NCBI GenBank assembly: GCA_013151745.1
Contig: JAADHS010000158.1
Span: forward strand, 1-33,232
From: Gammaproteobacteria bacterium
GTDB taxonomy: Bacteria; Pseudomonadota; Gammaproteobacteria; JAADHS01
Length of the DNA: 33,232 bases
Direction: 5' to 3'
Below are positions 3,212 through 27,757 of this stretch, piece after piece; the stretch's first letter is position 1; every line of letters begins with the position of its first letter. The notes under the pieces were generated by a model. That model was not told the origin of the DNA. It made no database searches and saw only the letters and a list, made by a program, of their open reading frames with translations. Position numbers and translations under genes: made by a program.

Positions 3212-3243
3212 TCATTTCAATGGCCGGAATGAACGAGAGTTAT

Positions 3244-3477
3244 TTAATTTATATTCCTTAAATTAGCTTGGCGAATGGCACACTCTATTTTTTTTTTGCT
3301 GGCACGCCAATCATGAGTCAGACAGGCTTCTTCCAGCGCATTTTGAATAGACAGCAAGATACGATCATTGGGTAAAGCGACTAGTTTTTCTGGACTTTGC
3401 TTTAGTCCCTGGTGTGTTTGTTTTGGCCGTGATTGTGGTTGACGATGGATGGATGGAAAATTTAGCAGGGTACCCAT
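3244..3477 (-). CDS. Small hypothetical basic protein
   Basis: This frame encodes about 77 aa from the ATG at 3477, preceded by AAGG at a distance of 9 bp. An upstream extension to 3567 is open but has no better start signal. The N-terminal half is rich in Gln, Pro and Arg. The C-terminal half (NDRILLSIQNALEEACLTH onward) looks like two amphipathic helices with basic residues. It converges on the cNMP-binding gene 32 bp away and diverges from rnd. I recognise no family. The gene is supported only by its frame and plausible amino-acid composition. Confidence 0.45.
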   Translation of the reverse strand: MGTLLNFPSIHRQPQSRPKQTHQGLKQSPEKLVALPNDRILLSIQNALEEACLTHDWRASKKKIECAIRQANLRNIN

Positions 3478-8711: not shown

Positions 8712-9248
8712 ATGAATTTTCATGAGCTTCTACAGATTGAAGGAGTAATGATAGAAAAGGAAAAGGGCGAACATGTTTTTATGCAGGGGGATTCAGACAA
8801 GTCACTCTATGTCATCCAATCAGGCTTATTGAAGGCCTATTACACATCTGAGAATGGAAAAGAGTCTATAAAATCATTTTTTTTATCCAGTGATATAATT
8901 GGAAGCCTGGCTTCATCCTATTTAGGAGGAGCTTGTTCTTTTAGCCTTCTTTGTTTGGAGCCTACGATTCTGACCAAAATACCGTTTAAAAAACTTCGAG
9001 ATTACTGCAAAAAAGATGTAAATATGGCGAATGAAATGATTGAACTCTTACTCCGTTTTGCTATGAAAAAAGAGAAACGAGAGTATGAATTTCTATGTCT
9101 AAGTGCCGAGGAGCGGTTTTATATACTTGAAAACAATTCCCCAAGCCTTTTAGAAAAAGTAACTCAAAATGATTTAGCACGTTATTTGGGGGTTACGCCT
9201 GTTGGTTTGAGCCGAATTAAAAAGAGAACACTTAGAGCCTGTAAATAA
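8712..9248 (+). CDS. Short Crp/Fnr-family transcriptional regulator
   Basis: The protein (178 aa, shorter than the usual 210-250) has an N-terminal beta-roll effector domain (about 15-110; KGEHVFMQGDSDKSLYVIQSGLLKAYY) and a compact C-terminal helix-turn-helix (VTQNDLARYLGVTPVGLSRI, about 149-168). The phosphate-cassette Arg-x-Ser of cAMP binders is absent (SLASSYLGGACSFSLLCLEP instead), and there is no N-terminal Fe-S cysteine cluster, so neither cAMP nor FNR-type oxygen sensing is indicated. The layout resembles the short Crp/Fnr proteins that sense unknown ligands. It is divergent from the MipA-SDR-DUF2141-VTT cluster and probably regulates it. Confidence 0.82.
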   Translation: MNFHELLQIEGVMIEKEKGEHVFMQGDSDKSLYVIQSGLLKAYYTSENGKESIKSFFLSSDIIGSLASSYLGGACSFSLLCLEPTILTKIPFKKLRDYCKKDVNMANEMIELLLRFAMKKEKREYEFLCLSAEERFYILENNSPSLLEKVTQNDLARYLGVTPVGLSRIKKRTLRACK

Positions 9249-9273
9249 CTTATAATTCTACTTATTGTGTCTT

Positions 9274-9452
9274 AGGGATGAAAATTAAATAACTTATACA
9301 TCTGGCATCACAACTTCGGCTCCTCTTTGAACGTTTTTCAATCAAAAAATACGCACTTTAGCCCACTAAAGCTGCGTTTTTTCTCAATCAGAACGTTCAA
9401 ATAGAAACCAAATTTGTACGTCACTTGCATAAGTTATTTAATTTTCATCCCT
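9274..9452. repeat. 179-bp palindromic repeat, copy A (MITE-like)
   Basis: The two ends are perfect 24-bp inverted repeats: 9274-9297 reads agggatgaaaattaaataac and onward, and 9429-9452 is its exact reverse complement. Inverted similarity continues inward. A nested pair tttgaacgtt/aacgttcaaa (about 9326-9335 and 9392-9401) surrounds a core (9338-9393) with its own stem around cccact. The core matches that of copy B at 19086-19140. No open reading frame is carried. It fills the gap between the Crp/Fnr gene and the hydrolase gene and ends 16 bp before the hydrolase start. A non-autonomous mobile repeat or large REP-like hairpin is the best reading. Confidence 0.8.
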
Positions 9453-9467
9453 TACCGGTTACTTTAT

Positions 9468-15992: not shown

Positions 15993-15993
15993 G

Positions 15994-16017
15994 GTAAATT
16001 CATAACGCCATGGGTTT
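15994..16017. repeat. solo end of the B/C repeat family
   Basis: taaattcataacgccatggg and the bases around it match the right-hand end of repeats B and C (taaattcataacgctatggg) with one or two changes. No partner arm is visible nearby. It sits just after the hrpA stop, between convergent genes. Confidence 0.55.
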
Positions 16018-16044
16018 ATCATATAAAATCGCCCTAATCATTTG

Positions 16045-19020: not shown

Positions 19021-19201
19021 TATACCCGTGGCGTTATGAATTTAGGTGTTTTCACGCGCATCTGTACCTCATTTTCAGCTTTTCCTCAATCAAAAAAACT
19101 CGACTTAGCCCGCTAGGTCTGCGTTTTTTCTCAATCAGAAAAACCGAATCTAAGGCACAGCTACACACGCTAACACCTAAATTCATAACGCTATGGGTAT
19201 A
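19021..19201. repeat. 181-bp palindromic repeat, copy B (MITE-like)
   Basis: The outer arms are 30-bp inverted repeats with two mismatches: 19021-19050 begins tatacccgtggcgttatga and 19172-19201 is its reverse complement, ending gctatgggtata. A core (19086-19140) matches that of copy A with one indel and a few substitutions. TATC occurs immediately outside both ends (19017-19020 and 19202-19205), a possible target-site duplication. It carries no reading frame. It lies between two convergent genes, so its transcript would form a long hairpin in either direction. Confidence 0.8.
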
Positions 19202-20061: not shown

Positions 20062-20208
20062 TATACCCATAGCGTTATGAATTTAGGTGTGAAAAATATG
20101 GTAAGGCAGAATGACGACGAATAGCAGGCCTATTGGGAGTTATTCTAACGCTGCCATGGGAAAAACAGGGCGTGTTATTTGCCCTAAATTTATAACGCTA
20201 TGGGTATA
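20062..20208. repeat. 147-bp palindromic repeat, copy C
   Basis: The left arm (20062-20087) begins tatacccatagcgttatga and the right arm (20183-20208) is its near-exact reverse complement. These are the same ends as copy B. The interior differs: it lacks the A/B core and holds a smaller dyad (aatag/ctatt around 20121-20133). The left end lies 3 bp before the DUF3025 start codon, so it supplies the 5' leader of that gene. A 3-bp TTC is found on both flanks, weak as a target duplication. Confidence 0.75.
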
Positions 20209-27674: not shown

Positions 27675-27757
27675 GGAATGGAAATTAAATAACTTTTACA
27701 ATTGGCATCTCAGATTCAGCCCGTCTTCCTACACCCTCAACGACTAACGCCATGGGT
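27675..27757. repeat. degraded hybrid of A-type and B-type repeat ends
   Basis: 27675-27709 resembles the left end of repeat A (gaaattaaataacttttac, then ttggcatct). About 50 bp later, ctaacgccatgggt resembles the inner and outer end of repeats B and C. The two arms do not pair with each other. It lies in the 218-bp gap between the response-regulator gene and the methyltransferase gene. Confidence 0.5.

Follow-up and report, generated by a model that had tools for sequence, protein, structure and literature searches.

Background

An almost wholly self-complementary repeat (hereafter copy A) separates the genes for a Crp-like regulator and an alpha/beta-hydrolase in a 33,232-nucleotide contig of a Gammaproteobacteria bacterium (JAADHS010000158.1, analysed at its full length and referred to as the window). 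The locus raises the question of whether such a repeat is a mobile element, what kind of enzyme might have moved it and whether it serves the genes on either side. Searches were performed in the genome of origin (3.70 Mb in 292 contigs, the window being contig C36), in a relatives search of 37 genomes (the genome of origin among them) and in sequence collections; the copy counts given below rest on these searches and on individual sequence stretches of draft genomes.

Boundaries and fold of copy A

The first-pass annotation had described a 179-bp palindrome with perfect 24-bp ends. The inverted repeat was confirmed, while its extent was corrected to 177 bp (9275-9451, forward strand); the terminal 21 bp of this element match perfectly. 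The A at 9274 and the T at 9452, outermost in the earlier description, are part of a TTA target-site duplication (9272-9274 and 9452-9454) and lie outside the element proper. The left terminal inverted repeat (GGGATGAAAATTAAATAACTTAT, 9275-9297, forward strand), conserved most strongly at GG and AATA(A/G)(C/T)TT, is answered by the right one on the reverse strand (9429-9451), and the arms 9274-9300 and 9426-9452 are 96% complementary over 27 nt. Self-complementarity of nearly the whole element was likewise upheld, with 57% ungapped end-to-end complementarity against 25% +/- 5% in other 177-bp segments of the contig, one of which, at copy B (see below), exceeds copy A. The 177 nt fold as RNA at -64.5 kcal/mol (z -13.0; 0 of 200 shuffles as good) and as DNA at -40.1 (z -10.3). 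The inverted repeat is real and far beyond chance.

Copy A has a G+C content of 34% against 43% for the contig, and the longest open reading frame wholly within it is of 30 amino acids; it is thus a non-coding element within the 50-500 bp of MITEs and, like them, is bounded by terminal inverted repeats. Its ends are of the AATT type and its centre is a conserved core of type 1 (9338-9393, forward strand), consisting of an A-tract, a short hairpin and a T-tract, which is common to copy B and to four TTA/TAA-type end classes.

Copy number and distribution

The search for further copies that had been proposed with the first description was productive, and copy A is a dispersed mobile repeat, with the multiple scattered copies of a prokaryotic MITE. 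BLAST searches of its own genome gave 65 matches (copy A included), many of them partial or diverged and four of them other full-length copies with 92-94% identity. The genome holds about 40 loci of the family. A terminal 26-mer pattern matched 41 times in this genome and a looser end signature, TWAGGRAYGNNNACNNAATARYTT, 60, 28 and 39 times in the three genomes rich in copies (this one and the two MAGs named below), with 0 matches in the controls in both cases. Among the 37 genomes of the relatives search, the responders were the genome of origin, one genome of the same family with diverged copies and one class-level relative (G018) with a core-only match flanked by yet other arms. The exact core 22-mer is also present in the MAGs WFQM01 ('Gammaproteobacteria bacterium', G056) and CALZHW01 ('uncultured Ectothiorhodospiraceae'), with about 45 and 40 copies, respectively. 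Most full-length copies in G056 are 86-99% identical to copy A, which suggests recent spread. At blastn sensitivity, neither copy A nor a related element had a match in the plasmid and phage collections, and copy B had none among the plasmids; the exact core or end sequence was not found in viral contigs.

Target-site duplication and an empty site

Thirty-seven elements were paired by their ends, without use of the flanks. TTA or TAA stood on both sides of 26 of them, and in 24 the two triplets were identical (12 TTA/TTA and 12 TAA/TAA; 12.9 expected; reached in 0 of 20,000 permutations). Since the outer flanking bases favour C/T ahead of the first triplet and G/A behind the second, the target resembles Y-TWA-R. 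When the elements are turned to one core orientation, TTA pairs and TAA pairs are both present, which shows that the element does not carry the triplet as a constant part; the core-oriented listing preferred matched triplets in choosing the ends and its totals were not used as statistics.

An empty site was reconstructed for another copy (L197, contig 4 of G056), which interrupts a Crp/Fnr-type gene for a cNMP-binding regulator. With its flanks joined and one TAA removed, the gene aligns ungapped across the junction with two intact homologues, from Sulfuricurvum and Rhizobium. The triplets and this empty site together display the target duplication of a prokaryotic MITE, in the 3-bp TWA form of IS5/PIF-Harbinger derivatives; the TA target of the Correia/ERIC type is not that of copy A type elements, which duplicate TTA or TAA. 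As regards the site of copy A itself, the genomes searched included none of the same genus for comparison, and a Crp-like relative in G003 has no element downstream and a different downstream gene. A fused argB-slmA-like frame (L084) was set aside as an empty site, two adjacent genes being sufficient to explain it.

Exchange of cores and ends

According to the first-pass annotation, copies A and B share a core and differ completely in their ends, as if families had traded cores and ends. All of this is supported by the present analysis. Copy B (19021-19201, forward strand) carries TATACCC ends and the same core type, 82% identical over 49 nt, and module exchange is demonstrated by the occurrence of one core with several end types. 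Core 1 (A-tract, CTTTAGCCC..CTAAAG hairpin, T-tract) occurs with AATT, ACAC, GCACG, TGCACG and TATACCC ends, and core 2 (CTCGAAATAAGAACGACTATTCCTGC), in which the long T-tract is absent, with AATT, ACAC and GCACG ends. The two ends of an element nearly always form a matched pair, mixed ends being rare (L006, L030). The TTA/TAA duplication was not seen in TATACCC-ended elements, which are compatible with a TA target. Elements of 44-46 bp that consist of ends only and are flanked by a TAA duplication (L058, L104 and L239, in two genomes) indicate that insertion probably does not require the core; they could also reflect later loss of the core.

Fragments of such elements are also present in the window. 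A truncated copy with the left end and middle arm (27675-27727, forward strand) is 79% identical to 9275-9327, and a solo right-end relic on the reverse strand (3238-3261) is followed by TTA. Other observations include a further TATACCC-ended element with a different core (20062-20208), a solo TATACCC end relic (15993-16019) and, in L021, L023, L024 and L025, an additional small palindrome (CCTACAGGGATGTAGG or a variant) within the core arm.

Probable mode of mobility and search for a transposase

Copy A is probably an orphan MITE whose mobility depends on a cut-and-paste transposase supplied in trans, one with an IS5/PIF-Harbinger-like TWA target. Such a transposase would recognise the paired ends by GG and, about 13 bp further in, AATAACTT, would cut out or copy the element and would insert it at Y-TWA-R with duplication of TTA or TAA. 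As the interior would be unnecessary for mobility, recombination or replication template switching could carry cores from one family to another without breaking up the matched pair of ends. The GG...CC termini are a further resemblance of the family to PIF/Harbinger-type elements. TWA is the target of PIF/Harbinger, whose transposases are phylogenetic neighbours of those of bacterial IS5 (PMC4482050); the assignment to a class, which we infer from the target, is uncertain because the same source gives the IS5 target as ANT.

An autonomous transposase with matching ends, the search for which had also been proposed, was not found. None of the seven PF01609 genes in the genome of origin and the 20 matches in four other genomes is bounded by family ends, the genome of origin has no PF13359 or PF00872 gene, and no PF01609, PF13359, PF00872 or PF01797 gene in the searched draft genomes lies between these ends. 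Family copies break contigs in these draft assemblies, and the partner transposase may have been lost, may be missing from the assemblies or may belong to another family. Unpaired ends lying far apart were considered as a possible autonomous element (e.g. G057:C35, 1.25 kb) and rejected, the listed reading frames between them being aroE-like and other host genes with no transposase. The conservation of the middle and core regions across genomes exceeds the needs of end-only mobility and counts against the MITE explanation.

Covariation of the hairpin and alternative explanations

RNAalifold on 43 aligned copies found double compensatory changes in 22 of 32 pairs. In a fuller hairpin of 58 pairs, 91.8% of the cells are paired and 33 pairs show double changes; its covariation score of 0.359 compares with 0.119 for shuffled alignments, a contrast inflated by the relatedness of the copies, and with 0.03-0.08 for slid structures, controls that favour the hairpin somewhat as it was derived from the same sequences. 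Such covariation is predicted alike by template switching, by selection on pairing and by a matched recognition of the two ends.

The covariation over the entire hairpin would be expected if the folded single strand itself were the substrate of an HUH/Y1 enzyme of the REP-associated, RAYT type. The genome of origin has 13 Y1 matches and G057 has 16, and one Y1-type gene in G057 is enclosed by inverted GGGGTC ends with TAA next to them. However, a 3-bp duplication is, to our knowledge, not expected from Y1 transposition, and copy A family ends do not enclose any of the 30 Y1 loci that were inspected, which is at odds with the REP/REPIN arrangement of a RAYT gene flanked by the same repeats. Template switching can, moreover, yield compensatory changes without selection (PMC8794818), and mobility through an HUH/Y1 enzyme is considered very unlikely.

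The conserved pairing, the A-tract, hairpin and T-tract of core 1 on both strands and the mostly intergenic location of the copies would also suit a structured RNA or regulatory element beneficial to the host, such as a terminator or mRNA-stability hairpin, that selection retains wherever it sits and that was mobile only in the past. Against this, covariance models of Rfam gave 0 matches for copy A at the gathering score, core 2 is without the long T-tract, the neighbouring genes are in all orientations, one copy breaks a gene and the closeness of the G056 copies to copy A suggests recent spread. Such a history of the family is therefore highly improbable.

A bolder extension of the orphan MITE explanation is that the hairpin core is a module transferable between differently targeted MITE systems (TWA against TATACCC ends) and across separate lineages because the fold itself aids spread or maintenance, for instance by offering an entry site to transposase, replication or template switching. 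This combined proposal is speculative and is regarded as a minor possibility.

Relation to the neighbouring genes

Between the stop codon of the Crp-like gene and copy A there are 26 bp, and 16 bp separate copy A from the hydrolase ATG (9468). Copy A had been suggested to form the 5' region of the hydrolase gene and to supply a promoter or hairpin function. Its nearness to the ATG and an alternative TTG start of the hydrolase at 9414, inside the element, would accord with copy A providing the promoter and start region, a side effect compatible with the MITE explanation. However, copy A contains no sigma-70-like site directed toward the gene, such sites in the region number 2 against 5.8 expected by chance, and with copy A removed the two genes would be only about 40 bp apart, which is compatible with an operon; a promoter role is thus unlikely.

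The clearest local feature of copy A is the terminator-like hairpin of its core (-12.7 and -13.9 kcal/mol on its two strands), with T-tracts following in both directions. The core looks like a candidate two-way terminator in these folding models, and since T-tracts follow the hairpin on either side, attenuation of transcripts by copy A is plausible. The element may have landed within what is probably a short operon, where it would add to the transcript a long hairpin and a core resembling a two-way terminator.

Comparison with known repeat families

Prokaryotic MITEs such as Correia/NEMIS, ERIC, RUP and QMITE mostly have a TA target, with 7-9 bp for QMITE2 (PMC10969869, PMC2229807). The copy A family is like them in being short and non-coding, with terminal inverted repeats, target duplication, high copy number, mostly intergenic location and the potential to form RNA hairpins, but differs in its TTA/TAA target, its ends and the circulation of several cores among end types. 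It shares the 3-bp TWA duplication with PIF/Harbinger elements, eukaryotic Tourist-like MITEs and bacterial IS5 relatives (PMC4482050); unlike these, it is nearly self-complementary over its full length and has no transposase found for it, and, unlike the eukaryotic elements, it is bacterial. REP, BIME and REPIN sequences with RAYT (PMC2817692) are also high-copy intergenic palindromes, and Y1-type genes occur in the genomes studied here; they differ from the present 177-bp elements, which have long inverted ends and a 3-bp duplication and whose ends are not associated with the Y1 genes.

An identical family was not found in the literature searched, which is weak evidence of absence. Copy A represents a new and strongly modular MITE family, part of a large and apparently undescribed superfamily whose members are, or recently were, active in uncultured bacteria. 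These bacterial elements carry the TWA signature familiar from the Harbinger elements of eukaryotes. With cores shared combinatorially between end families, matched ends and strongly covarying arms, they provide a natural data set for weighing template switching against selection that keeps long DNA hairpins paired, and they advise caution, as compensatory changes in such repeats need not indicate a functional RNA.

A second family and other observations

A second MITE family (L126, L127, L129, L134) comprises elements of 145-159 bp with GGGNCTGTAAATAAATAACTT ends, a TTA/TAA duplication and an unrelated core; the AATAACTT motif is common to its ends and those of the copy A type. A relic at 9229-9260 (forward strand; GAGCCTGTAAATAACTTATAATTCTAC) resembles a second-family end when compared with intact elements of that family, and the Crp-like gene beside copy A takes its final codons, the stop codon included, from this relic. 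The homologue of this gene in G003 (L176) has an ending different from the relic-encoded one. A 36-bp fusion of two ends of the second-family type (L133:1310-1345) lies beside a gene resembling IS3-type orfA.

A Y1-type transposase gene (MARPLRIEYKNAYYHVMNRG...) on contig 61 of G057 (L276:360-1379) lies within 20-bp inverted ends (GGGGTCAAATCT...) with TAA on both sides, an arrangement unusual for a Y1 element. The window also contains an 86-bp direct repeat with 74% identity within coding regions (728-813 and 1777-1862), possibly belonging to paralogous genes.
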